Shown here in pieces: positions 575 to 19,498 of a stretch of 22,489 nt of DNA (positions within the stretch are counted from its first letter, which is position 1; each line of letters starts with the position of its first letter). A program made the position numbers and the translations under genes. Source of the stretch: a virus; IMG/VR virus record IMGVR_UViG_3300031766_000078, positions 1 to 22,489 of that record; one strand, given 5' to 3'. Below the pieces are notes generated by a model. That model ran no database searches. It saw only the letters and a list, made by a program, of their open reading frames with translations, and was not told where the DNA came from.

Positions 575-808
575 TTAATCTTTGTGAATGGTCCAGCCAG
601 CCTCACCGCGAGAGTGGTAGAACTCGGCATCGACCTCGTTGCACCACCTGCGTTTCCGAAGCTTCGACTCCCGCCAGTGCGGACCCATCGCATCTTCCCA
701 AGCGTCGTCAGGCGAAAGCCCGAACCCCAGATTTAGGGTTCCCCCATAGGGACAGGCATGAGATAGGCATTGAACAACATAGTATCTAGTAGAGGTAGTA
801 TCAGACAT
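575..808 (-). CDS. hypothetical protein, 77 aa
   Basis: I do not recognise a family. The protein starts MSDTTSTRYYVVQC, has cysteines near residues 14, 19 and 55, and carries a W-rich C-terminal half (DAWEDAMG, RWCNEVDAEFYHSRGEAGW). I take the ATG at 808 rather than the in-frame TTG before it, because the -10 box TATAGT ends 7 nt upstream. It forms a complete one-gene cassette: promoter at 816-843 and terminator at 543-563. Its base composition is clearly more GC-rich than the AT-rich flanks and the late genes, which suggests a separate origin. Confidence 0.8.
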   Translation of the reverse strand: MSDTTSTRYYVVQCLSHACPYGGTLNLGFGLSPDDAWEDAMGPHWRESKLRKRRWCNEVDAEFYHSRGEAGWTIHKD

Positions 809-815
809 CAACAGA

Positions 816-843
816 ACTATAACAAATAATATATTATAGTCAA
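816..843 (-). promoter_or_regulatory. sigma-70-like promoter for the 575-808 gene
   Basis: On the - strand TTGACT (843-838), a 16-nt spacer and TATAGT (821-816) lie 7 nt before the ATG. The expected transcript start falls at or next to the start codon. Confidence 0.7.
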
Positions 844-984
844 GGACTTTTTAATCAGCAGCAAATAAAAATAAACACAAATAAGCAAATGCCCGTTTTC
901 TAGCATATAGACAAATAAACGTTATTATATTCTTGACAGTATAACTAACTGATTATCAGAGACTTACATTAAGTAAAAATCGTT
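844..984. other. gene-free stretch with CAAATAA repeats and a degenerate hairpin repeat
   Basis: No gene is seen. CAAATAA copies lie at 862, 878 and 912. TTGACA is at 933-938, and a degenerate copy of the boundary hairpin repeat (TAACTAACTGATT ... GACTTAC) is at 942-967. Confidence 0.6.
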
Positions 985-1070
985 GTAACTCACTGATTAG
1001 TAAGGAGTTAGAGCGCCCCGCCCGCCCCCGCCCTGTAACTCGCTGATAGACAACGAGTTACGGGGGTTTT
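985..1070. terminator. boundary repeat locus 1: paired hairpins around a G/C-run spacer
   Basis: Two copies of the hairpin repeat lie at 985-1010 and 1035-1061, separated by a C-run segment at 1016-1033. The right hairpin (GTAACTCG/CGAGTTAC) is extended by CCC/GGG and followed by seven Ts on the + strand, a strong + strand terminator. The left hairpin is flanked by an A-run, so it can end transcripts on the - strand. It sits at the 3' end of the 2534-to-1076 operon. Confidence 0.75.
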
Positions 1071-1075
1071 TTTAT

Positions 1076-1321
1076 TTAGCTTTTTTTATAGTTGGGGTGC
1101 CAAGTTGGGAATTCTACTTTTGGGGCCAATTCTGTATAACCTAACTCTGTGAAATGTTCATGCAGCTCGTAAGCTCCATGCAAGCATATTTCAAAAAAAA
1201 CTTGTTTCTTTTCGTCAGAGTACTCAAAGTTACAATCATTCCTTCCACTTTCACACTTAGTTACTCTAAATGTTTTAGGGAATACCCCCGTCAATTTAAC
1301 TGTTGGTGTTTCGTTGTTCAT
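1076..1321 (-). CDS. hypothetical protein, 81 aa
   Basis: I do not recognise this protein. It has two cysteines in the first third, aromatic residues throughout, and ends near the boundary repeat (locus 1). Longer forms starting at 1363 or 1381 are possible. I choose the ATG at 1321 (MNNETPTVKLTG) because it limits the overlap with the upstream gene to 26 nt and removes a low-complexity basic extension. It is the last gene of a tightly packed five-gene operon that begins with the GP88-like gene. Confidence 0.65.
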   Translation of the reverse strand: MNNETPTVKLTGVFPKTFRVTKCESGRNDCNFEYSDEKKQVFFEICLHGAYELHEHFTELGYTELAPKVEFPTWHPNYKKS

Positions 1322-1583
1322 CTTTTGCTTGTTGTATTTTTTTCTTTCTGTCGTTTCTGTCATGGAACCATGCAGAGCCATATCTAATGTTTCTTGATTT
1401 AAAGAATTCGTCGCAAGCTTCGCTCACTGTGCGAGCAATGTTTGCGGGGAGTACATCGTACATCCCGAAATTCTTTTGAGAGGATTGCTGGATTATTTCT
1501 TTCTTATCGATAGCTTTCTTAAGGAAAGGATCGTGTTCTATATCGGATTGATTAACAGAGTTGTCTCTTGTGGAAGTGCTCAT
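1296..1583 (-). CDS. hypothetical protein, 95 aa
   Basis: I do not recognise this protein. It is hydrophilic, with a basic C-terminal stretch (DRNDRKKKIQQAKDEQR), and has no membrane segment. Its ATG directly abuts the stop codon of the 47-aa gene before it (TAA-ATG), which implies translational coupling. Its 3' end overlaps the next gene. Confidence 0.7.
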   Translation of the reverse strand: MSTSTRDNSVNQSDIEHDPFLKKAIDKKEIIQQSSQKNFGMYDVLPANIARTVSEACDEFFKSRNIRYGSAWFHDRNDRKKKIQQAKDEQRNTNS

Positions 1584-1727
1584 TTATTTTATTTCCTTTA
1601 CAATTTCTAAGAGGGATTCTTTATCGACGTTGATCATTATTTCGATTTCATCTTTGTCATCGCCCAAGAATAGAAGACAGACTTCATTTGGATTATCGGG
1701 GACGGGTCTTTGTGCTTCTAGTTTCAT
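1584..1727 (-). CDS. small acidic hypothetical protein, 47 aa
   Basis: The short frame (MKLEAQRPVPDNPNEVCLLF ...) has an acidic middle (LGDDKDEIEIMI). It has the look of a compact beta-alpha peptide ending in a charged helix (DKESLLEIVKEIK). It begins 2 nt after the stop of the 24-aa peptide gene and ends directly at the next ATG. Gapless packing inside the operon is the main support, together with the protein-like composition. The function is unknown. Confidence 0.65.
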   Translation of the reverse strand: MKLEAQRPVPDNPNEVCLLFLGDDKDEIEIMINVDKESLLEIVKEIK

Positions 1728-1729
1728 TC

Positions 1730-1804
1730 TTATCTATTTCTTTTTAGAGACCATATAATTCCAGCTAGTATATAAAAGGCTGTCTTTAAAATTTCTACGT
1801 CCAT
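1730..1804 (-). CDS. 24-aa predicted single-pass membrane peptide
   Basis: This tiny frame reads MDVEILKTAFYILAGIIW followed by a basic tail SLKRNR. It has an acidic N-terminus, about 14 uncharged and mostly hydrophobic residues, and a positive C-terminus, the layout of a small membrane peptide. The ATG is 1 nt after the stop of the GP88-like gene, and the stop is 2 nt before the next gene, so it fills the gap in the operon exactly. A role (membrane effector, toxin-like, lysis aid) would be a guess. The frame could be chance, but the spacing argues otherwise. Confidence 0.5.
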   Translation of the reverse strand: MDVEILKTAFYILAGIIWSLKRNR

Positions 1805-1805
1805 A

Positions 1806-2534
1806 TTATTTGGGCTCAACAACGAAACCCGTTTCGTCTTCTTTAGCAAGACCTTTCTCAACCAATCCAACGATCACGCCTTTAGGATCTTTGAAGCGCA
1901 GATCATGCTCATCTCCATTTACTACGGGATAGCCAAGATAAGTTTTAGGAAGTGAACCACGGAAGACGACGGCGACGTTACCTCCTAGCTCAAGGATTGT
2001 TTTCATTTTGTTATCACTAGTCTCCTCACTGCGAGAAAAGGTAAGATGGTAGTTGTCAGGCATTTTGCCATCAAGCCAAGCCCTCATTCTATAAAACCCT
2101 TTAGTGTAATCGTAGAAACTCACATTTGGGAACTCTTCCATTACATTAAGAGGGCGAACTAGTTGGGGGTTTACTGTTCGGCCTTTAAGGACATTCTCCC
2201 AAGGAATATCTGAAGTAAGATTAAGGCGAAAGCATGGAATCATTTGCTTTTTACCTGCGCTAATGATCGCCTTGGCGATTTCCGTTCTAAGGTCCGACAT
2301 GAAACCAAAGTTATCCTTAAAGAATCTTTTAGTTTTATTGATTCTAGAAGTTTGCACGTTGCTCATGCAACCACGACCCGCAGTATCTAAACAAGCGGCA
2401 CGACAACCTGCGCTTGCCCATTGGCAGACATTGAATCCTGATTTATTAGCGGGGGAAAGGTGGAGACCGAAAGTGCGATATCCTAGAACCTCTCCCTTTA
2501 GTGTTTTAGTGTTACCTTTATTAAGTAATTTCAT
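1806..2534 (-). CDS. GP88-family phage protein (cysteine-rich), 242 aa
   Basis: The N-terminal half has the look of the phage 'gene product 88' family. It opens with MKLLNKGNTKTLKGE, then a cysteine-rich block with C37, C44, C48 and C56 (C-x6-C-x3-C-x7-C, containing W39 and GR), and then C101 in a PCFRLN motif. I know no established biochemical role for this family; the cysteines suggest metal or iron-sulfur binding, which is inference. The length fits a full-size member. It is the first gene of the operon running down to 1076. Its promoter is at 2544-2572 with only 9 nt between the -10 box and the ATG. The assignment is by remembered family pattern and has not been searched. Confidence 0.7.
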   Translation of the reverse strand: MKLLNKGNTKTLKGEVLGYRTFGLHLSPANKSGFNVCQWASAGCRAACLDTAGRGCMSNVQTSRINKTKRFFKDNFGFMSDLRTEIAKAIISAGKKQMIPCFRLNLTSDIPWENVLKGRTVNPQLVRPLNVMEEFPNVSFYDYTKGFYRMRAWLDGKMPDNYHLTFSRSEETSDNKMKTILELGGNVAVVFRGSLPKTYLGYPVVNGDEHDLRFKDPKGVIVGLVEKGLAKEDETGFVVEPK

Positions 2535-2543
2535 AACGAGGGG

Positions 2544-2572
2544 AGAATACCAGAAGAGAGAATGCGCTACAA
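2544..2572 (-). promoter_or_regulatory. sigma-70-like promoter of the GP88 operon
   Basis: On the - strand TTGTAG (2572-2567), a 17-nt spacer and TATTCT (2549-2544) lie 9 nt before the ATG. An A-rich tract (TTAAAAAAGG) precedes the -35 box, as in several other cassettes, and looks like an UP element. Confidence 0.75.
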
Positions 2573-2635
2573 GCCTTTTTTAATTATTATTAAATGTTTT
2601 TTAATGCTTGACACGCCATTAAAACAAAAACCTTC

Positions 2636-2725
2636 GTAACTCACTGATTGATAGGGACTTAGAGCGCGGCGGCGGCCCCCGCCCTGTAACTCATTGATAC
2701 TCAACGACTTACAACGATTTTTTTT
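2636..2725. terminator. boundary repeat locus 2: paired hairpins
   Basis: Hairpin repeats lie at 2636-2661 and 2686-2712 around the GC-rich spacer 2662-2685. The right copy is followed by a run of nine Ts (+ direction), and the left copy is flanked by A-runs (- direction). Several stems carry a single mismatch (GACTTA against TAACTC). TTGACA motifs flank it at 2608-2613 and 2728-2733. Confidence 0.7.
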
Positions 2726-2735
2726 TCTTGACAAA

Positions 2736-2771
2736 GAAAAACCCCGCCCTCCATGCAGAGAGGACGAGGTT
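2736..2771 (-). terminator. intrinsic terminator after the 37-aa gene
   Basis: On the - strand a 12-bp stem (AACCTCGTCCTC paired with GAGGGCGGGGTT, two G-T pairs) and an 8-nt loop are followed by a T-run. It ends the two-gene cassette that starts at 3776. Confidence 0.85.
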
Positions 2772-2795
2772 ATGTTTGTTACCCCTAACAAAAAA

Positions 2796-2909
2796 TTATA
2801 GTGCCATCCTGACAAGCTGGATGAGGCCGAAGAGAGTAACTAGGCCAGAAAGTAGGACTATGCAAGTGAAAACTACATTCTCGAAAAAAGATCTATCTTG
2901 TTCTTTCAT
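2796..2909 (-). CDS. 37-aa predicted membrane peptide
   Basis: The frame begins MKEQDRSFFENVV. A long hydrophobic segment follows (FTCIVLLSGLVTLFGLI, about residues 14-30) and then QLVRMAL. This is a clear single transmembrane helix with a charged N-terminus. It starts 10 nt downstream of a C7/G7 hairpin that should end most transcripts of the DUF932-like gene, so it may depend on readthrough. Its own terminator follows at 2736-2771. No promoter is visible between the two. The function is unknown; small holin-like or host membrane-acting peptides are possibilities only. Confidence 0.6.
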   Translation of the reverse strand: MKEQDRSFFENVVFTCIVLLSGLVTLFGLIQLVRMAL

Positions 2910-2914
2910 GGGAA

Positions 2915-2936
2915 GAAACCCCCCCTTGCGGGGGGG
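2915..2936 (-). terminator. C7/G7 hairpin terminator or attenuator
   Basis: On the - strand seven Cs, a GCAA loop and seven Gs are followed by TTTCTT, 9 nt after the stop of the DUF932-like gene. The T-run is short and interrupted, so termination may be partial, feeding the 37-aa membrane peptide gene just beyond it. Confidence 0.75.
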
Positions 2937-2945
2937 CGTTATGGG

Positions 2946-3776
2946 CTATGCAGGTAAAATTAAAGCTGACTCGCGATCATCTTGGGAGATGACAACTTCG
3001 GGAGGATTGACCACACGGTCAAAAATCTGCTGGGCTTGCATCGTCATGCGGGGAAGGTGCATGACATTGTTAGCGGTTAGATTCTTAAACGACTCGGTCA
3101 CGGCGTTGTAGACATTCCAGAGAGTCCCCTTGTACTCGGAGAACGCGCCCTCGTTGCCGTCCTTATCGACGCCACCGTTTTCGATGTTGTCGAAGATAGC
3201 TTCAATCTTGGTGGGCTTGATTAAACCCGCCTTGACAAGCTTATTGAGAACCGAAACCTCATTGGCCTCGGTGTTTTTGTAAGCCTCAATGCGCTTACCT
3301 TGGTTGTCCCAAGTCTGTTGAACTTGGCCGATTGCCTTATTAAAAAGGAAAGGAAGGTCTTTTAAGATGTTTTGCGTATGCTTGCGAGCAAGTGTGACGT
3401 CAGAAGAAAAACAGAGGTTTTCGCAAACCAACATGGAATTCCCAATTGCGAGGCTGCTGGCAAATTTCTGGTTGTGGGAGTTGCGAAGTCCCATGACAAG
3501 CTGGCGCTCTTCACTGTCGAAGCCAGACTTGCGAAGAGCGAAACCGCTGAAGCAATTCATATTACCTTCGGAAAGACCGTGCTCTTCCTGTTCAATGGTG
3601 AAACCATTGTCCTTAAGAGTTTCGCGAGCTTGATTAATGAGGGCATCATGAGCGATAGGGAAGTGGTTGCCTTTGCCTTCGGCGTCTGGCTTCCTCATCC
3701 AGTTGGGAGCAGGAGTTTCGATAGCTTTAACGGCTGCGAAGTCAACTTTGTTGGATGAGTAGATTAGGTTTTTCAT
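2946..3776 (-). CDS. DUF932-like phage protein, 276 aa
   Basis: The middle section (about residues 94-126) reads VMGLRNSHNQKFASSLAIGN and continues into a CENLCFSSD motif. This resembles the signature of DUF932 phage/plasmid proteins: an invariant N-S-H, then a small-residue strand, then C-x-N. The flanks are soluble and helical, and there is no membrane segment. The biochemical role of the family is not established to my knowledge. It leads a two-gene cassette whose promoter is at 3834-3861. Unlike its neighbours it has a long leader (about 50 nt) containing a hairpin and seven ACT triplets. Confidence 0.65.
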   Translation of the reverse strand: MKNLIYSSNKVDFAAVKAIETPAPNWMRKPDAEGKGNHFPIAHDALINQARETLKDNGFTIEQEEHGLSEGNMNCFSGFALRKSGFDSEERQLVMGLRNSHNQKFASSLAIGNSMLVCENLCFSSDVTLARKHTQNILKDLPFLFNKAIGQVQQTWDNQGKRIEAYKNTEANEVSVLNKLVKAGLIKPTKIEAIFDNIENGGVDKDGNEGAFSEYKGTLWNVYNAVTESFKNLTANNVMHLPRMTMQAQQIFDRVVNPPEVVISQDDRESALILPA

Positions 3777-3797
3777 AGTAGTAGTAGTAGTAGTAGT
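3777..3797 (-). repeat. (ACT)7 triplet repeat directly before the start codon
   Basis: Seven perfect ACT triplets on the - strand (AGT on the + strand) run straight into the ATG of the DUF932-like gene. They replace any ribosome binding site. Confidence 0.9.
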
Positions 3798-3808
3798 TAG
3801 TGGTAAAG

Positions 3809-3825
3809 CGAGAGCGTTTCTCTCG
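3809..3825 (-). promoter_or_regulatory. hairpin in the 5' leader of the DUF932-like gene
   Basis: A perfect 6-bp stem CGAGAG/CTCTCG with a 5-nt loop lies between the promoter and the ACT repeat. It is near the predicted 5' end of the message, where it could stabilise the RNA. Confidence 0.6.
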
Positions 3826-3833
3826 ACAGGAGA

Positions 3834-3861
3834 ATTATGACAGAAAAGTAATTAACTGCAA
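3834..3861 (-). promoter_or_regulatory. sigma-70-like promoter of the DUF932 cassette
   Basis: On the - strand TTGCAG (3861-3856), a 16-nt spacer and CATAAT (3839-3834) are preceded by the A-rich tract TTAAAAAAGGG. The leader to the ATG is about 50 nt, the longest among the cassettes. Confidence 0.75.
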
Positions 3862-3934
3862 GCCCTTTTTTAATCTTTTATGCATTTTTATTTTTTTGTT
3901 TTGAGCTTGACAAGGAGTTAACGAAAAAACCGCC

Positions 3935-4018
3935 GTAACTCACTGGTACTCAAGGAGTTACAAGGCGGCGGCGGGGGCTGGCTCCTAAGCCACTGATATT
4001 CAATGACTTAGGAGATAT
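3935..4018. terminator. boundary repeat locus 3: paired hairpins
   Basis: Repeats lie at 3935-3961 and 3984-4012 around a GGCGG-rich spacer. On the - strand the left copy is extended by CCGCC/GGCGG and followed by six Ts, an excellent terminator for the 5032-to-4021 operon. The right copy has an extended CTCCTAAG/CTTAGGAG stem followed by an A/T run on the + side. Confidence 0.8.
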
Positions 4019-4020
4019 TT

Positions 4021-4197
4021 TTATTTAATGTATTCTTTTACAGAGAGGCAGTTAAACTCCATTGCCCTTTGATCGGTAGGATCTCCAGCCTCTCCGACCT
4101 CAACCAAGTCGATAGCCGCAGCCTCCGAAGAGGCTTCAACTTCAAACTGCAAGCGGTTTACTTCCTCTACTATCACTAAGTAGTTTTTAATCTTCAT
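4021..4197 (-). CDS. small hypothetical protein, 58 aa
   Basis: I do not recognise a named family. The protein starts MKIKNYLVIVEEVNRLQFEV, then an alanine/glutamate-rich helix (EASSEAAAIDLVEVGEAG) and a short C-terminal strand. This is a compact layout reminiscent of small phage proteins that put a helix between beta strands. I take the ATG at 4197, which overlaps the preceding stop by 11 nt, rather than an extension to 4248. It is the last gene of the four-gene operon and stops just before locus 3. Confidence 0.7.
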   Translation of the reverse strand: MKIKNYLVIVEEVNRLQFEVEASSEAAAIDLVEVGEAGDPTDQRAMEFNCLSVKEYIK

Positions 4198-4477
4198 CTG
4201 GCAATGGCTCCTTTCCGTAGTCGAGGTAATGCTTATGCTGCCTAGCATATTGGTAAACCTTATTCATTGCTTTCTCCACTTCTCCTCTTTCCTGACAAGC
4301 TTTATCCCAAGCTTCCTCTCCAAGAGGGTAGTAATCCCTCTCATGGAAGTCTGTATCATAAAGGAGTTTGACTTGAGCGTCGCTTACAGCGCAAAACAAA
4401 TCATTGTATTGTCTGCGTAGTCTATCCTCATCCGATCCATTCATGTGGATGCACGGCATTGTATGTTTTTTAATCAT
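4187..4477 (-). CDS. hypothetical protein, 96 aa
   Basis: I do not recognise this protein. It is hydrophilic, with two histidines and a cysteine near the N-terminus and a tyrosine-rich C-terminal half (KVYQYARQHKHYLDYGKEPLP). An internal start at 4459 (MPCIHMNG) is also possible. It begins 3 nt after the previous stop and overlaps the next gene by 11 nt, so it is translated as part of the operon. Confidence 0.65.
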   Translation of the reverse strand: MIKKHTMPCIHMNGSDEDRLRRQYNDLFCAVSDAQVKLLYDTDFHERDYYPLGEEAWDKACQERGEVEKAMNKVYQYARQHKHYLDYGKEPLPDED

Positions 4478-4480
4478 AAT

Positions 4481-4663
4481 TTAAATTCTTTCTGTTGCTT
4501 GTTCAATGACTAAGACAAAGCCCAACTCTTTTAGGGCCTCAATGTCATAGTGAGTTAAAGTTTTTCTTCCTGTTAGTTTCTTTATAGAATTCCTGACAGA
4601 TTCTTTTTTTACATAAGTTAGGGTATTACCGTAAACTTCTTTTCTTTCAACCTCTATTGTCAT
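4481..4663 (-). CDS. hypothetical protein, 60 aa
   Basis: I do not recognise a family. The frame contains SVRNSIKKLTGRKTLTHYDI followed by EALKELGF, which could form a small helix-turn-helix-like bundle, but this is weak. It lies 18 nt after the 'MGLDQYA' gene and 3 nt before the 96-aa gene, in the same operon. No ribosome binding site is seen. Confidence 0.65.
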   Translation of the reverse strand: MTIEVERKEVYGNTLTYVKKESVRNSIKKLTGRKTLTHYDIEALKELGFVLVIEQATERI

Positions 4664-4681
4664 AGTTAATTTTGTTTAATT

Positions 4682-5032
4682 TTACCACCAGCAAGTATAA
4701 AAAACTTGATCGCCTTCTGAGATGGCTTCTCTAGCTTTTGCCACAAACTCTAGATCATAATCTTGGCGCGTTGCGTCGTGACTAGTATCACTCCCAAAGA
4801 AAAAGCCTTGGGTTTGAGGTAATGTTTGGTGCTTAATGCAAGTCCATAATTGGTCCAAGTCTTCTGTAGTGATTTCAAGCTCTTGGCAATTAAGATCACT
4901 TTCTGATTTGCCAGTTTTGATGGCCCAAAGTTTTTCCATCCAACCTTGCAAAGCATTATGTTTGCGCCAGTAAGAAAGCTCAGTTGACTCACCATTAGAG
5001 TCCTTTCGGTGTGCATATTGGTCTAATCCCAT
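4682..5032 (-). CDS. conserved phage protein of the 'MGLDQYA' type, 116 aa
   Basis: The pattern is a short family I recognise from many phages. It starts MGLDQYAHRKD, has a YWRKHNALQGWMEKLW block (about residues 21-36), a CQELEIT strand, a GFFFGSD motif and an aromatic C-terminus YTCWW. Such proteins are usually annotated as hypothetical and I know of no proven function. The ATG lies 6 nt after the -10-like GATACT. It heads a four-gene operon ending at locus 3. Confidence 0.7.
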   Translation of the reverse strand: MGLDQYAHRKDSNGESTELSYWRKHNALQGWMEKLWAIKTGKSESDLNCQELEITTEDLDQLWTCIKHQTLPQTQGFFFGSDTSHDATRQDYDLEFVAKAREAISEGDQVFYTCWW

Positions 5033-5038
5033 AACAGA

Positions 5039-5069
5039 AGTATCCTGACAGAATATTTATAATGGTCAA
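5039..5069 (-). promoter_or_regulatory. promoter-like sequence of the 5032-to-4021 operon
   Basis: TTGACC (5069-5064) and GATACT (5044-5039) are separated by 19 nt, longer than ideal. The -10 box is 6 nt before the ATG as in other cassettes, and an A-tract precedes the -35 box. Confidence 0.5.
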
Positions 5070-5219
5070 CGATTTTTTAATGTTTTTTTTGCGCTAACAA
5101 TGCCAAATATTTTTGCAAATAAACTTGACTAACATTGCCAGATATTTAAGCAAATAATGCGCTAAGGTCACTAAGGTTAAAAGCAAATAAGCCAAATATA
5201 CGCCCAGATCCACAAAAGA
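5070..5219. repeat. second CAAATAA / TGCCARATATTT repeat cluster
   Basis: No gene is seen. Copies of the composite repeat lie at 5100-5122 and 5135-5157, with a third, rearranged copy at 5184-5200 (GCAAATAA then GCCAAATAT). Spacing between CAAATAA units is 35 and 33 nt. Confidence 0.7.
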
Positions 5220-5358
5220 TAACCCACTGATACTCAGTGAGTTACAGAGCAGCTTAAAATTAAAAAACCTTCTAAGTCACTGATACTCAACGAGTTAGAG
5301 CGATTCGCCTGCCCCCGCCCGCTAACTCACTGATATTCAACGAGTTACAGCGTTTTTT
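5220..5358. terminator. boundary repeat locus 4: three hairpin copies
   Basis: Copies lie at 5220-5245, 5272-5298 and 5322-5348, the only triple locus. The first can also fold as CACTGA/TCAGTG. The last two flank a GC-rich spacer (5299-5321) and are followed by seven Ts on the + strand. The stretch 5246-5271 ends in AAAAAACCTT before the second copy, serving as the T-run for the - strand. Confidence 0.75.
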
Positions 5359-5406
5359 TCTAAAATGATTTTTTTCGGGCTGTAAAGCTAAAAAAGGGAC
5401 AAAGGC

Positions 5407-5430
5407 AAAAAAAAGCTCCCTTTCGGGAGC
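5407..5430 (-). terminator. intrinsic terminator of the RMF-like gene
   Basis: On the - strand GCTCCC, a GAAA loop and GGGAGC are followed by eight Ts, 14 nt after the stop codon. Confidence 0.9.
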
Positions 5431-5444
5431 CTTGCGCGGGGCGG

Positions 5445-5672
5445 TTAGTCGTGCCAAGGAGCCACCTCTTTCTCGCTATGCTCACAGTGAGCTACCCACT
5501 CTTGGGCTTCGGCATAGGCTGTTCTCCAAACCCCCATGGCCAACTCCCCGTCTTCAAACATTTCTGGGATCACCCACCCACGGTAAGACCTTGGGCAAGT
5601 CATGCTCTCCTGCCCTTGGAGTCCTGCCTGATAAGCGAAGTCATATAACTGATGTACATTTAGTGTTGCCAT
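5445..5672 (-). CDS. ribosome modulation factor (RMF)-like protein, 75 aa
   Basis: The core AYQAGLQGQESMTCP (about residues 13-27) closely follows the RMF signature, in which a GYQAG segment is followed after a few residues by CP. Further on, VWRTAYAEA parallels the W-R-E-A-M segment near the RMF C-terminus. RMF binds the 30S subunit and drives ribosome dimerisation and hibernation in bacteria. Here the spacing between the two blocks is longer and the C-terminus is extended, so the function is inferred, not shown. It is a single-gene cassette with its own near-perfect promoter 6 nt from the ATG and a strong terminator. Confidence 0.55.
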   Translation of the reverse strand: MATLNVHQLYDFAYQAGLQGQESMTCPRSYRGWVIPEMFEDGELAMGVWRTAYAEAQEWVAHCEHSEKEVAPWHD

Positions 5673-5678
5673 GCGTAG

Positions 5679-5707
5679 ATTTTACTCCAGAAAAGAATTA
5701 GATGCAA
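5679..5707 (-). promoter_or_regulatory. sigma-70-like promoter of the RMF-like gene
   Basis: On the - strand AAGC then TTGCAT (5707-5702), a 17-nt spacer and TAAAAT (5684-5679) lie exactly 6 nt before the ATG. A leaderless transcript is expected. Confidence 0.8.
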
Positions 5708-5727
5708 GCTTTCTTTGTATAAAAAAC

Positions 5728-5767
5728 AAAAAAAACCCCGCCCCCAAAAGAAGGAAAGGGGGCGAGG
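5728..5767 (-). terminator. intrinsic terminator of the 6482-to-5869 operon
   Basis: On the - strand a 10-bp GC stem (CCTCGCCCCC with GGGGGCGGGG) and a 12-nt loop are followed by eight Ts. Confidence 0.9.
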
Positions 5768-5795
5768 CTTATGCACTAGGCTTTTATGCAGTTAC

Positions 5796-5864
5796 CTAGT
5801 CGGCGATGATTTGACCAGAAGGGACAGAAACACAAAACCCTCCCGCTGCATTACCGATACACAC
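5796..5864 (-). CDS. possible 22-aa peptide after the 99-aa gene
   Basis: A GTG-started frame (GNAAGGFCVSVPSGQIIAD after the first residues) fills most of the gap between the stop at 5869 and the terminator at 5728. It has a protein-like, glycine-rich composition. It could also be reached from the upstream gene by a frameshift at the C-T6 run near its end. There is no ribosome binding site and no other support, so it may be chance. Confidence 0.3.
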   Translation of the reverse strand: MCIGNAAGGFCVSVPSGQIIAD

Positions 5865-5868
5865 ACAC

Positions 5869-6168
5869 CTAAAAAAGAGTTTTGATCATTTGGACTGCGG
5901 TGGCGAAGCGGCCTTTCACCTTGGTGATCCCTGCAACGTGGAGGGTGCGGAACTTGCGCTCCCCTGCGTCATCAAGGTCGCGGGTAGCAGCGACGACATA
6001 ACGCTTGCCATTCAATTCGGCGAATCCATCGGTCTGGATTTCTTCCACAAGGAAGCTTCTGATACCGTCAGCCTTAACGGTGCTTTGCCCAGCATTGGCG
6101 TAGGTGATCACACGCTTGTTGAGCTTAGATTCAAGGGCGGCGGGGGATAGTGTATATAGGTTTTTCAT
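5869..6168 (-). CDS. hypothetical protein, 99 aa (paralogue of the 6539-6751 product)
   Basis: I do not recognise a named family. The protein is basic and strand-rich, with KRVITYANAGQ near residue 18 and KFRTLHVAGITKVKGRF near residues 71-87. The second block matches VFKTLHFGRIEK of the neighbouring 70-aa protein, and the first matches its KQFVYYTANN, so the two look like diverged duplicates. It has its own promoter (6176-6204) whose -10 box contains the stop codon of the gene before it. It can therefore be transcribed both in the operon and alone. It ends in CTTTTTTAG. Confidence 0.7.
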   Translation of the reverse strand: MKNLYTLSPAALESKLNKRVITYANAGQSTVKADGIRSFLVEEIQTDGFAELNGKRYVVAATRDLDDAGERKFRTLHVAGITKVKGRFATAVQMIKTLF

Positions 6169-6175
6169 CAGGGAT

Positions 6176-6204
6176 AGTTTAAAGGTTTTGAGAGATCTTG
6201 TCGA
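6176..6204 (-). promoter_or_regulatory. internal promoter for the 99-aa gene
   Basis: On the - strand TCGACA (6204-6199), a 17-nt spacer and TAAACT (6181-6176) lie 7 nt before the ATG. It is embedded in the 3' end of the 47-aa gene. Confidence 0.65.
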
Positions 6205-6322
6205 GGATATTTCGGCGATTTTCTGCTTTTATTTTTTGATCTTGCTCCCACTCCCGAAGCTCAAGGTTTCCAGAGATTACCATGAGAAGAGTGAGGCCAG
6301 TGAGGAAGAGAAAGGTTTTCAT
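6179..6322 (-). CDS. 47-aa protein with N-terminal hydrophobic segment
   Basis: The frame starts MKTFLFLTGLTLLMVISGN, a classic short signal-anchor or signal peptide (K2, then about 15 hydrophobic residues). It continues as a charged helix (ELREWEQDQKIKAENRRNIL ...). The product is probably anchored in the inner membrane with a soluble helical tail. The layout recalls very small spanin- or lysis-type proteins, but no lysis gene is adjacent and the role is unknown. The ATG is 1 nt after the stop of the 52-aa gene. Confidence 0.65.
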   Translation of the reverse strand: MKTFLFLTGLTLLMVISGNLELREWEQDQKIKAENRRNILDKISQNL

Positions 6323-6323
6323 A

Positions 6324-6482
6324 TTACTTAGAGGCTTTTAGGATTTGTTTTTTCTTTTCAGCAATTAACTTTTCTGCAGAGAGGGTACAGAGACCGTAGG
6401 ACTTGATTTTTTCCAGACCTTGTTCCATGCCCTCTAATTCTGCTTTATACATTCTTACTGTCCAGTTGTTGGTGTTGCTCAT
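6324..6482 (-). CDS. small helical hypothetical protein, 52 aa
   Basis: The frame (MSNTNNWTVRMYKAELEGME ...) is mostly amphipathic helix with one cysteine and a lysine-rich end (AEKKKQILKASK). It is unrecognised. The ATG lies exactly 6 nt after a perfect TATACT -10 box. It is the first gene of the cassette that includes the 47-aa membrane protein and the 99-aa protein. Confidence 0.7.
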   Translation of the reverse strand: MSNTNNWTVRMYKAELEGMEQGLEKIKSYGLCTLSAEKLIAEKKKQILKASK

Positions 6483-6488
6483 GTGAGA

Positions 6489-6516
6489 AGTATAGTTGAA
6501 TTGGGGTTGGAGTCAA
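6489..6516 (-). promoter_or_regulatory. sigma-70-like promoter of the 52-aa gene
   Basis: On the - strand TTGACT (6516-6511), a 16-nt spacer and TATACT (6494-6489) lie 6 nt before the ATG. An A-rich tract precedes the -35 box. Confidence 0.8.
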
Positions 6517-6538
6517 CCCCTTTTTAAATGTTTTTTAA

Positions 6539-6751
6539 TTATTTTTCAATGCGCCCGAAGTGAAGAGTCTTGAACACTTGCTTGTTGCTAGTCTTGCTAT
6601 CGTGACTCTTGTCCACGACCTTGCACACTGCGAACTCATTTGTCATGCGCTCGATACCACGAAGGATATACATACGAGGATTGTTGTTGTTGGCGGTATA
6701 GTAAACAAACTGTTTCCCTGTCAGGCTAGCGATACTTTCTTTAGTGATCAT
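6539..6751 (-). CDS. hypothetical protein, 70 aa (paralogue of the 99-aa protein)
   Basis: The protein (MITKESIASLTGKQFVYYTA ...) is basic and strand-rich and shares two blocks with the product of 5869-6168 (YYTANN and FKTLHFGRIEK). A longer reading from 6799 exists, but its first 16 codons lie across the promoter. The TATACT box ends 6 nt before the ATG at 6751, which fixes the start there. It forms a one-gene cassette. No hairpin terminator is seen after it; an A/T-rich stretch leads into the next promoter. Confidence 0.7.
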   Translation of the reverse strand: MITKESIASLTGKQFVYYTANNNNPRMYILRGIERMTNEFAVCKVVDKSHDSKTSNKQVFKTLHFGRIEK

Positions 6752-6757
6752 GCGAAG

Positions 6758-6786
6758 AGTATAGGGCCAGAGGCAGAGAATTAAAA
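6758..6786 (-). promoter_or_regulatory. sigma-70-like promoter of the 70-aa gene
   Basis: On the - strand AAGC then TTTTAA (6786-6781), a 17-nt spacer and TATACT (6763-6758) lie 6 nt before the ATG. Confidence 0.75.
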
Positions 6787-6867
6787 GCTTTTTTCGCATA
6801 AAATTAATTTATTTTTTTCAGCAAAAGGCTTGACATAGGGCCAGAGTATACTATGGAAAAAAACCTC

Positions 6868-6956
6868 GTAAGTCGTTGATACTCAATGAGTTACGGGGCG
6901 GGGCGGGGCGCTCCGCGCTAAGTCGTTGTCGCTCAGTGAGTTAGAGCGTTTTTTAT
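6868..6956. terminator. boundary repeat locus 5: paired hairpins around GGGGC repeats
   Basis: Copies lie at 6868-6894 and 6918-6944, separated by a spacer with three GGGGC units and GCGC. On the - strand the left copy extends to CTCG/CGAG and is followed by seven Ts. On the + strand the right copy is followed by six Ts. It works in both directions on paper. Confidence 0.75.
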
Positions 6957-6993
6957 TTAAATGTTTTTATTTACTTTTTTTACCCTAAAAGGC

Positions 6994-7022
6994 TTGACAC
7001 TCTCACTGTTCTGATTTAAAAT
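6994..7022 (+). promoter_or_regulatory. sigma-70-like promoter on the + strand
   Basis: GC then TTGACA (6994-6999), a 17-nt spacer and TAAAAT (7017-7022) form the best + strand promoter match in the left region. It points toward the 3' end of the - strand operon, so its RNA would be antisense to that end or encode a very short peptide. Confidence 0.6.
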
Positions 7023-7128
7023 GGTGGCATATTTCTGCGAGGGCTATGCCAGACCCACGATCACTCCTTATTTAACGTCTTACGGATCGCTTAACCGTGT
7101 TTATACTCACTTGACGAAAGTTTATTGA
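7021..7128 (+). CDS. possible 35-aa tyrosine-rich peptide
   Basis: A complete frame (MVAYFCEGYARPTITPYLTS ...) fills the gap between locus 5 and the 3' end of the 7122 gene, overlapping that gene's stop by 7 nt. It has seven tyrosines and a plausible composition. Its ATG overlaps the TAAAAT box at 7017-7022, so this promoter would start transcription after the ATG; expression would need another start. A TGGCATA/TATGCCA hairpin lies inside. It may instead be a non-coding structured RNA or nothing. Confidence 0.3.
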   Translation: MVAYFCEGYARPTITPYLTSYGSLNRVYTHLTKVY

Positions 7129-7379
7129 TCTAGGTTTTGCGCTAAGAGCGCGGCGAGACCCTGAGGCTCCTCCTTCTTCTCTTGTCTTAGTCCTATGGAG
7201 ATTTCAAACTCATGAAGAGCGTATTCTAGATCTTCAGCTATATTTTTGCGTTGTTCAAAGTTTTTAGCTTTAGAGCGGGTTTTAAGATGTGATATCTTCC
7301 AAGCTAGACATTCTCTTAACCAATTTAAAGATTTGATTTGTTTAAATGTCCCTGATAAGTCTATTTTATCTTCGTTCAT
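7122..7379 (-). CDS. hypothetical helical protein, 85 aa
   Basis: The protein is rich in charged helix (KAKNFEQRKNIAEDLEYALH) and ends AALLAQNLDQ. It is unrecognised. It is the last gene of the three-gene cassette starting at 7825, 11 nt after the 74-aa gene. No strong terminator follows directly; locus 5 lies about 180 nt downstream. Confidence 0.65.
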   Translation of the reverse strand: MNEDKIDLSGTFKQIKSLNWLRECLAWKISHLKTRSKAKNFEQRKNIAEDLEYALHEFEISIGLRQEKKEEPQGLAALLAQNLDQ

Positions 7380-7390
7380 ATTATTTTTAT

Positions 7391-7615
7391 TTACTTGCCG
7401 TAGATCCAGCGAAGCTCATCACTCCACTCCTTGACCATCTCAGCCTCATGCCCCTTTGGGTTCTTGCAAGCTGCACCGATCCACTTTCTGATCATGCGCT
7501 GGAGCTTTTTCATCCTGCGCCATTCCATCCAATGCACACCAATGGCGAAAGGGTAAGTGAGAATGAGAATGGCTTTGCCCTTGGCGTCTTGGTCTTTGAA
7601 GTTGTGTAGGTTCAT
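7391..7615 (-). CDS. hypothetical protein, 74 aa, possible membrane segment
   Basis: The frame has a hydrophobic stretch AILILTYPFAIGVHW (about residues 15-29) after a charged N-terminus. It continues with a very basic helix (RRMKKLQRMIRKWIG), suggesting association with the inner membrane. It is unrecognised. It starts 3 nt after the stop of the coiled-coil gene and has no ribosome binding site, so translation is probably coupled. Confidence 0.65.
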   Translation of the reverse strand: MNLHNFKDQDAKGKAILILTYPFAIGVHWMEWRRMKKLQRMIRKWIGAACKNPKGHEAEMVKEWSDELRWIYGK

Positions 7616-7618
7616 GGG

Positions 7619-7825
7619 TTATGAGTAAGTTTTGATTTGTTCGCGAGCGTTGTCGATTTCCTTAACAGAATTATCAGCCATATCCCCCAACTTGCGAAAC
7701 ACCTTGCGTTTTTCCTCGTCGGAGTATAAAGCCTCGACTCTAGCTTTAGAAGAAATTTCACCAAGCCTTAGGCGTAAAGTAAAGAGTTGGTCTTTGAGGA
7801 ATGCGATGTGTTCTTGTTCAGTCAT
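7619..7825 (-). CDS. small coiled-coil-like protein, 68 aa
   Basis: The protein (MTEQEHIAFLKDQLFTLRLR ...) shows heptad-like leucine spacing and alternating charges over most of its length, so it is likely a helical dimer. It is unrecognised. The ATG is 6 nt after TAGAAT. It leads a three-gene cassette with the 74-aa and 85-aa genes. Confidence 0.7.
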   Translation of the reverse strand: MTEQEHIAFLKDQLFTLRLRLGEISSKARVEALYSDEEKRKVFRKLGDMADNSVKEIDNAREQIKTYS

Positions 7826-7831
7826 GGGAGT

Positions 7832-7860
7832 ATTCTAGTATAGAGTTAGGGCTAAAGAAA
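7832..7860 (-). promoter_or_regulatory. promoter-like sequence of the 68-aa gene
   Basis: TAGAAT (7837-7832) lies 6 nt before the ATG. The -35 region 17 nt upstream (TTTCTT, 7860-7855) is poor, so the call rests mainly on the conserved -10 position. Confidence 0.5.
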
Positions 7861-7864
7861 AGGT

Positions 7865-8035
7865 TTATTTTGTTTTTCTTGGGGCGGGGGAAGCGTGAGA
7901 GCAATCGCTAAAGAAAGGGATCGGCTCTTGCTTGGCGAACTCCTCAGAATTCTTTTTGAACTGAGCTTTGCGCTGATCAATGAGATCTTGAACTTCTTGT
8001 GAGCGAGTGGCGGGGTAAGGCTTGTTTGCTTTCAT
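7865..8035 (-). CDS. small hypothetical protein, 56 aa
   Basis: The frame (MKANKPYPATRSQEVQDLID ...) continues with QRKAQFKKNSEEF and a proline-rich end with SDCSHASPAPRKTK. It is soluble and unrecognised. Support comes from the promoter at 8042-8070, whose TAAACT box ends exactly 6 nt before the ATG, and from the fit between the neighbouring genes. It is a one-gene cassette. Confidence 0.7.
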   Translation of the reverse strand: MKANKPYPATRSQEVQDLIDQRKAQFKKNSEEFAKQEPIPFFSDCSHASPAPRKTK

Positions 8036-8041
8036 GTGAGT

Positions 8042-8070
8042 AGTTTACTTTGTTTTCCTGAGTAGTGCAA
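8042..8070 (-). promoter_or_regulatory. sigma-70-like promoter of the 56-aa gene
   Basis: On the - strand AAGC then TTGCAC (8070-8065), a 17-nt spacer and TAAACT (8047-8042) lie 6 nt before the ATG. Confidence 0.8.
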
Positions 8071-8093
8071 GCTTTCTTTGCTATTATTTCGAT

Positions 8094-8315
8094 TTATTTA
8101 CTTATCCAACCGAACTTAAAAAAGTCAAAGTGACCATTGTCATCCCCATACTTCAGATACTCCTTGGTGATCTCTGAACCATACTTGTCTTCGATGTCTT
8201 TGTACATACTGCCAGCAAAAACCTCGTCCATGATCTGGAAGAATAAACTCTTGTTCATACCTCCACCATCTTCGTTGGCGTAGTTAAAAGACTGCATCTC
8301 TTCTTGTTTCTTCAT
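8094..8315 (-). CDS. hypothetical protein, 73 aa
   Basis: The protein (MKKQEEMQSFNYANEDGGGM ...) has a C-terminal half with many aromatic and acidic residues (DDNGHFDFFKFGWISK). It is unrecognised. Upstream in-frame ATGs at 8321 and 8342 overlap the promoter. The TATACT box at 8327-8322 sits exactly 6 nt before the ATG at 8315, so I choose that start. It is the outermost - strand gene, facing away from the late block across a control region. Confidence 0.7.
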   Translation of the reverse strand: MKKQEEMQSFNYANEDGGGMNKSLFFQIMDEVFAGSMYKDIEDKYGSEITKEYLKYGDDNGHFDFFKFGWISK

Positions 8316-8321
8316 GGGCAT

Positions 8322-8350
8322 AGTATACAGCGAACAGCTCACAATTAAAA
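8322..8350 (-). promoter_or_regulatory. sigma-70-like promoter of the 73-aa gene
   Basis: On the - strand AAGC then TTTTAA (8350-8345), a 17-nt spacer and TATACT (8327-8322) lie 6 nt before the ATG. Confidence 0.75.
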
Positions 8351-8541: not shown

Positions 8542-9216
8542 ATGGCAAAAGACAACAGCTTATTATTGGGTCATATTGAATTGACAAAGAAACAAAAAGA
8601 ATTCTATGATATCATGACTGACGACAAAACACGAATAGTGTTTGTTGGGGGTCCAGCAGGAACAGCAAAGACATTTTTATCAGTTTATAGTGCATTAGAT
8701 TTATACAATAGCGACAAAAACTTAAAAATATTATATTTGCGTAGTGTGGTGGAGAGTGCGGATAGGGGGATAGGTTTTCTGAAAGGAGACATGGATGATA
8801 AGTTTGGGCCATATATGGCACCCCTTTTAGATAAGATTGATGAGTTATTGAATAAGCCAGAGAAAGACCAATTAAAAAATAAAAAGGTACTAGAAGCGGA
8901 ACCGATAAACTTTTTGCGCGGATGTACTTGGAGAGATAAGGTGGTTATTGTGGATGAGGCTCAGAATATGAGTGTGAGAGAATTGACTACTGTGCTTACA
9001 AGGATAGGTCGTGGTAGTAAGTTGTTTATATGTGGAGATAGTTTGCAGAGTGATATTAGGAATAGTGGGTTCGATAGGCTTAAGTCTTTGTTTGAGGATG
9101 AGGCTAGTTCCAAAAAGGGTGTGTGTAGTGTATCTTTTGGGAAAGAAGATGTGATAAGAGATAAAATTATCAGTTATCTTGTAGAAAAAATTGAATTATT
9201 AACCCCGAAACAATAA
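8542..9216 (+). CDS. phoH: PhoH-like ATPase, 224 aa
   Basis: Walker A is GGPAGTAKT (residues 36-44, with A in place of the usual second G). The PhoH-type segment LRSVVESADRGIGFLKGDM follows at about 67-84, ending toward KFGPY. Walker B is VVIVDEAQN (134-142), followed by the LFICGDSLQSD motif (161-171). Together these define a PhoH-family P-loop ATPase, close in length to the ATPase domain alone. Cellular PhoH proteins are linked to phosphate stress and RNA metabolism; the phage role is unsettled. It is the first gene of the + strand block, with a leader of roughly 40 nt. Confidence 0.92.
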   Translation: MAKDNSLLLGHIELTKKQKEFYDIMTDDKTRIVFVGGPAGTAKTFLSVYSALDLYNSDKNLKILYLRSVVESADRGIGFLKGDMDDKFGPYMAPLLDKIDELLNKPEKDQLKNKKVLEAEPINFLRGCTWRDKVVIVDEAQNMSVRELTTVLTRIGRGSKLFICGDSLQSDIRNSGFDRLKSLFEDEASSKKGVCSVSFGKEDVIRDKIISYLVEKIELLTPKQ

Positions 9217-9225
9217 AATTTCTAT

Positions 9226-9594
9226 ATGAATAAAGTATTTTGTTCTTCCTGCGGTCACAAGAATGTGTACGAGGTGGCTAAACCAAAGTTTTGTGCTGAC
9301 TGTGGTGCTTCTATAGGGATGCCCTCTCAAGCTTCTGTCAAAAAAGTGACAACGGAAGTCGAGCATGAGGTAGAACAACCTCGTAGACTTGATCTTAATA
9401 GATTAAAAAACGATATTGTTGCCGAAGTTGGGGATAACCAAGGAACTACTCTAACTGATTTATGGAAATCTGCTACTCCAGATTCTGCTAATAGTTTTGA
9501 TCGCCCAGCGCCTAATCTACCAGATGGCGAAGCTATGATCAAACAGAGTCAGGCTGATTGTTCTTCCTCACGAGTCCAAGATATTGATGGATAA
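9226..9594 (+). CDS. zinc-ribbon protein, 122 aa
   Basis: Two CxxC pairs near the N-terminus (C6/C9 in CSSCGHKN and C23/C26 in CADCGAS) form a zinc ribbon. The rest is acidic, polar and probably disordered. The protein is likely a small nucleic-acid- or protein-binding factor, and its place between PhoH and the sigma-like protein suggests a role in transcription or RNA handling (inference). It starts 9 nt after phoH with no ribosome binding site and overlaps the next gene by 8 nt. Confidence 0.8.
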   Translation: MNKVFCSSCGHKNVYEVAKPKFCADCGASIGMPSQASVKKVTTEVEHEVEQPRRLDLNRLKNDIVAEVGDNQGTTLTDLWKSATPDSANSFDRPAPNLPDGEAMIKQSQADCSSSRVQDIDG

Positions 9595-10261
9595 GACTTA
9601 TGAAGACCTTATCCCAGAAATAGAATTACTTTTAAATAGATATAGAGCTAAGTGGCAACTTAATTCTATAGCATGGTTGGATTACGATGACGTATGTCAA
9701 ATCATCCGTATCCATTTACACAAAAAGTGGCATCTGTGGGATCAGAAGAGGGCTTTCAAGCCTTGGGCGTCTATGTTGATGAATAATCAGATTAAAAACT
9801 TGATTAGGAATCACTATGGGAACTTTGCTAAGCCATGCCTTCGTTGTTCCTTCTACTTAGGTGGAGATGAATGTGGGTTTACTAAAAGTAAAGAGCAAGA
9901 TGATGAGTGCGATGATTTCGCCAAGTGGAAGACCAAGAAACAATCAGCCTTTAATTTAAAAATGCCTGTTTCACTTGACTCTCTTATTTCCGTTCAAGAT
10001 AGAATGAAAGACGATGAATTGAACTATGAAGAAAAAGCTTTAAAGATACATAATTTAATTATGTTGGAATTGGGGGAGAAACATAAAGAAATATATAGGT
10101 TATTATACATGGAGCATTGGGATGAAGAAAAGGTAGCTAAGAAGTTCGGGTTTAAGAAAGACACTAGTAAGAGAAAGACCCCTAGATACAAACAAATAAA
10201 CAATTTAAAAAAGAAATTCTATATGATTGCGTTGAAAGTGGTAAAACAGGAGGATTTATGA
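9587..10261 (+). CDS. sigma-70-family-like protein, putative late transcription factor, 224 aa
   Basis: Residues ~30-80 resemble sigma region 2: LDYDDVCQIIRIHLHKKWHL then PWASMLMNNQIKNLIRNHYG, with the acidic-hydrophobic start and an N-x-x-R core. The C-terminal part (about 150-220, including HWDEEKVAKKFGF and a basic tail) can form a region-4-like helix-turn-helix. Between them lies an insert with five cysteines, CLRCSFYLGGDECGF and a later C-D-x-x-A... stretch, possibly metal-binding. Small sigma-like proteins of this layout occur in environmental phages. I take the ATG at 9587, after an in-frame TTG. Its 3' end overlaps the next gene by 4 nt (ATGA). Confidence 0.6.
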   Translation: MDKTYEDLIPEIELLLNRYRAKWQLNSIAWLDYDDVCQIIRIHLHKKWHLWDQKRAFKPWASMLMNNQIKNLIRNHYGNFAKPCLRCSFYLGGDECGFTKSKEQDDECDDFAKWKTKKQSAFNLKMPVSLDSLISVQDRMKDDELNYEEKALKIHNLIMLELGEKHKEIYRLLYMEHWDEEKVAKKFGFKKDTSKRKTPRYKQINNLKKKFYMIALKVVKQEDL

Positions 10262-11316
10262 TATACGATTTAACAGAGAAGCAGAAAGAGCAGATTTTAA
10301 AACTGTTTAAAAAGAATCCTGACTTAATGTATATAACCCGAAAGATATTTAATGATGAGAATATCGATGGTCGGTCTAAACAAGGGAGAGCAGTTAGAAA
10401 GTTCTTAGCTGAACAAGACAAAAGAGCAAATACTTCATTAGCCCCAAAGGTAGAGCAGGTACATCTCAACAAAGAGCAGAAAGAGTTCCTAATGACGGAT
10501 AATATTGAGGTTGGTATGAATGCACTAGAAATAGCCCGACTCACATTCAAAGACAGGGACATCATTCCTCTTAGCATGAAACATCGAGTCATCGTTGATT
10601 TCCTTAAGACCTATCGGCCAGAAATCGTTGATGATAATGAAATTGTAACAAAAGAGAAGTGGGTGGCTCCAAAGTCAATTAGTAGGGCTATAAGTAAGGT
10701 AAATAACTTCTGTTCAACCCAATTAGAAGAATTATCTCTCCAGACAAAACAAAAGAAATTAATGGAGCAATTAATCATCTACTTGCGTAGCCCAAGATTT
10801 AATCACTTCATAAATCAATATACAACTCTAGCTGATCGCGACTTATTTGAAAGTGAGTTCGTCAGGGCGATTTGGGACAAGCCTGACCTCACTAATGACG
10901 AATTGAACTTGTATGTGACCGTGTGTACCAACTACGTGCGCCAAAAACACATCCAGCAGCGCATTGACAAGCTTAACGCACTACTTGACGACCAAGACAA
11001 CGAAAGGGACATCACAATGCGTCTGACGGAGATTATCAAGGCCACTAGTGATGAGCTTAACCAGTGTGAAAAACGAATTGAATCATTGACGAAGGATCTC
11101 AATGGATCTAGAACTGCTCGACTAAAAGCCAAAGGAGAAGAAAATGGATCTATCTTTGCTTTGGTCGAAGCATTCCAAGAACGAGAAGAAAGAGACCGTA
11201 TGATCATGATGGCTGAACTTCAAAATAAATTAATTGAAGAAGAAGCTGACAGATTGGAGAGTATGGACGATTATAAAGCAAGGATCTTGGGAATATCCAA
11301 AAAAGAATTATTATGA
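10258..11316 (+). CDS. DNA-binding protein in the small-terminase position, 352 aa
   Basis: The N-terminal 120 residues hold two similar helical units, each beginning L-T/N-K-E/x-Q-K-E and ending in a helix of the type RAVRKFLAEQ or HRVIVDFLKTY. This looks like tandem helix-turn-helix domains. A central region and then a long acidic/basic coiled coil (about 235-340) follow. The context directly upstream of a nuclease and TerL suggests a terminase small subunit or a recognition partner, but it is larger than most and I recognise no family signature. AGGAGG 6 nt before the ATG is the only good Shine-Dalgarno match in the block. Its stop overlaps the next ATG (ATGA). Confidence 0.5.
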   Translation: MIYDLTEKQKEQILKLFKKNPDLMYITRKIFNDENIDGRSKQGRAVRKFLAEQDKRANTSLAPKVEQVHLNKEQKEFLMTDNIEVGMNALEIARLTFKDRDIIPLSMKHRVIVDFLKTYRPEIVDDNEIVTKEKWVAPKSISRAISKVNNFCSTQLEELSLQTKQKKLMEQLIIYLRSPRFNHFINQYTTLADRDLFESEFVRAIWDKPDLTNDELNLYVTVCTNYVRQKHIQQRIDKLNALLDDQDNERDITMRLTEIIKATSDELNQCEKRIESLTKDLNGSRTARLKAKGEENGSIFALVEAFQEREERDRMIMMAELQNKLIEEEADRLESMDDYKARILGISKKELL

Positions 11317-14127: not shown

Positions 14128-14171
14128 AAAGTTATAAAGTAACTTTTATAACTTTAGTGTAACAATTGTTA
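14128..14171 (+). promoter_or_regulatory. inverted repeat and palindrome between TerL and portal
   Basis: Directly after the TerL stop, an 11-bp perfect stem AAAGTTATAAA/TTTATAACTTT (14128-14138 and 14145-14155) has a 6-nt loop. It is followed by GTGTAA (14158-14163) and the 12-bp palindrome TAACAATTGTTA at 14160-14171, three bases before the portal ATG. The stem is too AT-rich for a typical terminator. It may be an operator, RNA processing site or late promoter region. Confidence 0.6.
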
Positions 14172-14173
14172 GC

Positions 14174-16138: not shown

Positions 16139-16147
16139 GTGTATAGA

Positions 16148-17677: not shown

Positions 17678-17686
17678 AAATCTAAT

Positions 17687-17692
17687 TATAAT
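17687..17692 (+). promoter_or_regulatory. TATAAT box before the decoration gene
   Basis: A perfect TATAAT lies 8 nt before the ATG at 17701, in the 23-nt gap after the protease-scaffold gene. There is no good -35 match. It could drive the strongly expressed decoration and capsid genes. Confidence 0.4.
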
Positions 17693-17700
17693 ATAAAATT

Positions 17701-18279: not shown

Positions 18280-18293
18280 TTCACTCACAGATT

Positions 18294-19406: not shown

Positions 19407-19431
19407 TCCACTGGATAAACAATTAAATATT

Positions 19432-19465
19432 GAGAGTCGCTTCGAAAGAGGCGGCTCTTTTTATT
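19432..19465 (+). terminator. intrinsic terminator after the major capsid gene
   Basis: An 8-bp stem AGAGTCGC/GCGGCTCT (one G-T pair, 19433-19440 and 19451-19458) with a 10-nt loop is followed by TTTTTATTT. Confidence 0.9.
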
Positions 19466-19472
19466 TGATTTT

Positions 19473-19498
19473 TTTAGTGTAACCTATTATTATAAGTT
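19473..19498 (+). promoter_or_regulatory. GTGTAA element and TATTAT-rich leader before the 124-aa gene
   Basis: A T-run and GTGTAA (19478-19483) lie 16 nt before the ATG, with TATTAT between. It follows a terminator, so a new promoter is needed here for the connector genes. Confidence 0.45.

Follow-up and report, generated by a model that had tools for sequence, protein, structure and literature searches.

A 75-amino-acid open reading frame (ORF) on the minus strand of a viral record of 22,489 bases, the whole of which is referred to here as the window, is confirmed by its conservation as a real gene, and its product belongs to a new family of small phage proteins from the early region. The resemblance of this family to ribosome modulation factor (RMF) is real as a motif, homology with RMF is unproven, and the window gene as it stands is to be regarded as encoding a conserved early protein. 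The layout of the promoter, which ends six nucleotides before the ATG, is a sturdier surprise than the RMF resemblance.

A conserved acidic family and its genomic setting

The window has a block of small, mostly minus-strand genes (approximately 575–8342); a second block, on the plus strand, includes PhoH, a sigma-70 region 2 protein and the terminase. The preliminary description of positions 5445–5707 had drawn attention to an AYQAGLQG...CP core and a WRTAYAEA segment, and both are present as described in the minus-strand translation of the ORF, where AYQAGLQGQESMTCP forms residues 13–27 and WRTAYAEA residues 49–56. A reading-frame check of the plus strand of 5445–5707 showed that the protein is not encoded there, nor anything comparable, and position 5707, given earlier as the end of the feature, is where the -35 hexamer TTGCAT begins (Table 1).

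Table 1. Positions in the window of the 75-aa ORF and the elements around it
Feature	Position	Strand	Remarks
75-aa ORF	5672..5445	minus	ATG at 5672, TAA ending 5445; conserved acidic family
-35 element TTGCAT	5702..5707	minus	Sequence; TTGC/TTGT kept in relatives
-10 element TAAAAT	5679..5684	minus	17-nt spacer to -35; TAAAAT missed by a stricter consensus scan
6-nt gap, -10 to ATG	5673..5678	minus	Count peak at exactly 6 nt
Intrinsic-terminator-like hairpin AAGGCTCCCGAAAGGGAGCTTT, then T run	5412..5433	minus	Downstream of gene; same kind after the gene in many relatives
Terminator-like hairpin	5741..5754	minus	Upstream of gene; counterpart in several relatives

Members of the family were found in the window and in 26 other IMG/VR contigs, 25 of these by tblastn and one (L208) by motif scan, with identities to the window protein of 50–90% (13 other sequences, alignment A5) and a common motif of AYQAGLxGxESxTCP ... 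WRxxYxE. Across the 14 sequences of A5, 23 residues are invariant (M1, A13–L18, G20, E22, S23, T25–P27, S29, Y30, G32, I35–E37, F39, G42, W49 and R50), and L208 differs at three of these sites (I for L18, T for S29 and F for Y30). The short length of the ORF, and the lack of an above-threshold annotated database match for the window protein, would suit a chance ORF that is no gene, yet the conservation already refutes this, third codon positions varied most in seven of eight pairwise comparisons (with a tie in the other) and, of 24 frames read on the opposite strand in eight relatives, 23 are interrupted by stops, so that the probability of a chance ORF is practically nil.

Searches of the phage genomes collection gave no match to the window protein by tblastn and no relative of the window by megablast, and the 68 stretches fitting the family pattern in genome contigs included no family relatives. 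Of the 25 contigs examined for gene context, 23 carry one or more further window genes at the locus, the usual neighbours being g12 and g17 upstream, DUF932 and GP88 downstream, and PhoH/sigma divergent. In L028 and L029 the family gene is the sole window gene in common; in L028 it lies among DnaB-like and small genes, all on one strand, and the sequence just upstream is A-rich, without an evident promoter of the TTG-TAnnnT type. The gene thus belongs for the most part to one phage group, yet has moved. The occurrence of the family gene in L028 and L029 without other window genes, in L028 near a DnaB-like helicase, may be a sign of transfer between phage lineages.

As to the host, a search with TerL brought up distant phages alone, the majority infecting Bacillus and Lactococcus, a search with the capsid-like protein gave no matches, and TerL was found in none of 398 genomes of one phylum in a search without a positive control. 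GP88 matches included mycobacterial and marine phages among others, and the group is tentatively called 'marine' from these GP88 relatives. The sigma-70 region 2 protein (window 9584–10261; 29.9 bits against a cut-off of 24) is a candidate late sigma factor.

Promoter layout and predicted leaderless transcripts

That the gene stands under its own promoter, as proposed beforehand, was upheld: the sigma70-like TTGCAT-17-TAAAAT (5707–5679), ending 6 nt before the ATG, is conserved in two diverged upstream classes of the relatives. These two main classes, the window-like TTGCATCTAATTCTTTTCTGGAGTAAAATCTACGCATG and TTGCCAAAAACTAATTCTTCGGCTACTATCCCCTCATG, share the -35 element, the 17-nt spacing, TAnnnT and the 6-nt gap, and otherwise differ. 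The hairpin upstream of the gene would isolate it from the preceding unit. Early expression is inferred from position, as the gene belongs to the block of small genes that runs divergently from the PhoH/sigma/terminase block.

Promoter-like patterns of the form TTG-N19..21-TAnnnT-Nd-ATG that open an ORF of 40 aa or more were counted in the window and 25 loci for values of d from 0 to 20. At d = 6 there were 51 distinct ORFs in 18 homology clusters, compared with 0–10 ORFs and at most five clusters at any other d, the clusters being the fairer count as the contigs are related; ORFs under 40 aa showed no 6-nt peak. In the window, starts with TTG...TAnnnT 6 (or 7) nt before the ATG are found at 8035, 6482, 5672 and 808 on the minus strand and 9226 on the plus strand, and they occur at many related loci as well. 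Given the standard distance between a -10 element and the start of transcription, a -10 element ending 6 nt before the ATG would place the transcript start on the AUG or no more than one or two bases from it, and a leaderless mRNA is therefore predicted. The mRNA of the 75-aa gene is probably leaderless, and the layout predicts a largely leaderless early transcriptome in this phage group.

Shine-Dalgarno (SD)-like sequences were rare among the listed window starts (two of the 15 early starts and one of the 14 late ones, late being the plus strand 8542–22392), and SD sequences appear to be scarce at translation starts throughout the phage. Of the two early matches, one belongs to the 75-aa gene, where GGAG at 5688–5685 abuts the -10 element and so would not be part of a leaderless transcript. 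According to PMC5312081, transcripts without a leader are frequent in phages, and to that extent the idea of leaderless phage mRNA is known in kind.

Two other kinds of repeated element were observed in the window. Near-palindromes of the type GTAACTCACTGATACTCAACGAGTTAC occur, mostly in intergenic positions, at 1035, 2686, 5220–5350 and 6868–6946 and at related loci; some are paired approximately 50 nt apart with G+C-rich sequence between them, and these may be terminators. A stretch of TTTAGTGTAAC is common to 14130–14173 and 19455–19498, upstream of the portal-like gene and the gene at 19499, and is a possible late promoter element.

Resemblance to ribosome modulation factor

The YQAGxxGxxxxxCP block of the family has spacing identical to that of E. 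coli RMF (PF04957/NF011162), the later W-x3-aromatic-x-E block of RMF is also found (W-R-x-x-[YW]-x-E recalling WLGGWRE), and the proteins are of similar small size. Within the family YQAGLxGx5CP is invariant except for L18, but there are also marked differences from RMF. The family has 12 extra residues between the blocks, the W following CP after 21 residues against 9 in E. coli RMF, which bears out the longer core-to-C-terminus spacing reported previously; the G of the RMF W-x-x-G-[WY] is absent except in L018; RMF G16 is replaced by A and Y31 by R (R, K or S across members); and the basic N-terminus of RMF is absent. The window protein has a net charge of -8 and a pI of 4.7, and all 15 distinct members carry net charges of -4 to -8, whereas 51 enteric RMFs showed net charges of +5 to +8 and pI values of 10.1–11.2 (about 10.5). 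However, 35 divergent genomic PF04957 matches were also negative in mean charge (-3.9), and the acidity of the family therefore counts against RMF function more than against descent. Divergent acidic PF04957-like proteins in Pseudomonadota genomes (for example L153 and L164) are, like the family, acidic on average and without a KRQKR-type N-terminus, but unlike it they have normal block spacing and better HMM scores.

In searches of the curated libraries, no NCBIfam family other than RMF was matched, and RMF was hit by 5 of 14 members (best E 0.014). In Pfam, RMF was again the family hit most often (6 of 14, best E 0.14); DUF2799 alone appeared besides it, in one member and with a better value (E 0.011). 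The window protein scored 12.4 bits against the NCBIfam RMF model (cut-off 40) and had no hit in Pfam, L005 and L018 scored 11.3 and 12.3 bits against PF04957 (cut-off 27.9), and the curated RMF cut-offs were reached by no family member (0 of 12 records in one such test). The proposed relation to RMF thus stands insofar as both libraries single out RMF, and falls short in that they do so only below threshold; by the strict cut-offs, the profile search found no significant RMF relation, an outcome that the preliminary description had itself named as telling against the relation. RMF itself matched PHROG families 10492 (E 1.9e-4) and 13106 (E 0.015), while the window family matched neither of these in PHROGs, nor any known family above chance level.

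Alignment of profiles by hhalign gave P values for the family against RMF of 1.7e-4 and 6e-4, or 0.0014 with a more diverse RMF set, and a score that topped all 43 decoy clusters (profiles) from the same viral loci and was reached by 4 of 400 column-shuffled profiles. With a superfamily HMM the window protein ranked 24th of 3,366 sequences, amid chance ORFs. With a two-block RMF matrix in which the gap between the blocks was left free to vary, three of 3,526 decoy ORFs scored at least as high as the window protein (19.6; best decoy below it, close behind, 18.7). Pfam assigns an RMF domain to two of the three, L218 and the RecT fusion L196 described below, but not to the third, and none of 200 column-permuted matrices reached the window score. 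The first-block PSSM gave 12.1 bits, compared with 25.5–32.1 for four RMF-like proteins (three from phages, one from a plasmid), and the second block was best placed elsewhere in 6 of 15 members (L007, L008, L011, L019, L021 and L025); W-R-x-x-[YW]-x-E fits 14 of the 15, L007 having serine for E. AlphaFold models were of low confidence (mean pLDDT 54.3 and 53.2 with 8 and 14 sequences), and a Foldseek search with the low-confidence model had a best E of 4.3, RMF not being among the matches, and is uninformative. Taken together, the profile and block tests for RMF kinship are suggestive at best; the family may be a distant offshoot of the RMF-like superfamily, and the 'new branch' of RMF raised at the outset is possible but unproven.

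The motif by itself is not diagnostic, since the 49 YQAG-G-CP pattern stretches in viral contigs comprised 26 of this family, two RMF by Pfam, four terminase-like proteins (the YQAG-CPHC proteins L202, L214, L219 and L231, which we take to be large terminases) and 17 short or chance-looking frames. The RMF likeness could be a convergence on a short motif by an unrelated, phage-specific family, an explanation that fits a takeover role and not RMF descent, and to which we give somewhat less than an even chance: the noise-level HMM scores, the shuffled profiles that equalled the hhalign score and the occurrence of the block-1 motif in terminase-like proteins are in keeping with it, while the choice of RMF by two curated libraries and the fit of nearly all members to the second block as well argue against it.

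Phage proteins above the cut-off already exist in public records, and the idea of a phage RMF is therefore not new in kind; a literature search for phage-encoded RMF, limited in reach, gave nothing in point. Among them, the PF04957 proteins of Caulobacter phage Cr30 (AGS81047.1, 35.7 bits) and Rhodococcus phage Trogglehumper (gp62, 31.3 bits) are small, have an RMF-type motif and are annotated as hypothetical; they keep CPY, have normal spacing and pass the Pfam cut-off, none of which holds for the window family. A 54-aa viral protein (L218:2243–2404, minus strand; Pfam RMF 36.4 bits, above the cut-off) is a genuine RMF-type phage protein. A RecT protein (L196:223–1323, minus strand; RecT 130.1 bits) has a C-terminal RMF domain (28.3 bits against 27.9), and two Shewanella plasmids carry an RMF gene a short distance ahead of recT.

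Candidate roles of the protein

The reading to which we give an even chance of being correct is that of an acidic early takeover protein, expressed as its own unit from a leaderless mRNA, with a helix-linker-helix structure and maybe derived from RMF. The gene would be transcribed as a separate unit (terminator, promoter, ORF, terminator) and the protein probably translated from the leaderless mRNA right after infection. The core, consisting of a predicted helix AYQAGLxGxESxTCP, then SYxGWVIPExFxxG and then a second predicted helix starting WRxx[YW]xE, probably forms a short helix-linker-helix module, for which distant descent from the RMF-like superfamily, with 12 residues added in the linker, is evenly balanced with its absence. 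By position and analogy, the protein is most likely a host-takeover factor, which would grip a host protein or complex and make no 100S dimers. Its conservation, its nearly fixed early position between the small early genes and DUF932/GP88, its own promoter and the flanking hairpins are in favour of this reading, as are the RMF matches in the libraries, the hhalign and two-block scores and the uniform acidity; the scores below every curated cut-off, the superfamily HMM rank, the shuffled profiles and the first-block motif in terminase-like proteins weigh against it. Takeover through protein contacts is preferred because a protein of pI 4.7 is a poor candidate for the ribosome site of RMF.

According to PMC6746590, that site is on the back of the 30S subunit, close to where 16S rRNA ends in the anti-Shine-Dalgarno sequence; a working phage RMF would bind there and park host ribosomes. 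The identical Y-Q-A-G-x-x-G-x5-C-P spacing, the consistency of RMF as the sub-threshold library match and the existence of above-cut-off phage proteins lend this some credit, but it is improbable in view of the low pI, the missing basic N-terminus, the substitutions at G16 and Y31, the unconserved G of WxxG, the lengthened linker and scores below every cut-off. The suggestion that the protein parks host ribosomes is unsupported, with the acidic charge counting clearly against it. An inhibitor in the style of DNA-mimic or anti-restriction proteins, acting via negative charge, is unlikely to a similar degree: a net charge of -4 to -8 in about 75 aa and an early position would suit it, but only two of the 23 invariant positions, E22 and E37, are acidic, so that charge is not what is most conserved, and the PHROGs search pointed to no known family.

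Leaderless mRNAs can initiate on whole ribosomes, and an RMF-derived protein could be imagined to fill the anti-Shine-Dalgarno pocket of the 30S subunit, turning off SD-dependent host mRNAs while leaderless, SD-free phage mRNAs are read, a combination that we regard as very improbable. If the takeover protein favoured here is indeed RMF-derived, phages would have remodelled the ribosome-hibernation fold into an acidic takeover factor. Irrespective of any RMF descent, a phage group in which the promoters of small early genes repeatedly stand exactly 6 nt ahead of the start codon offers a natural system for testing how uncultured bacteria translate leaderless mRNAs.
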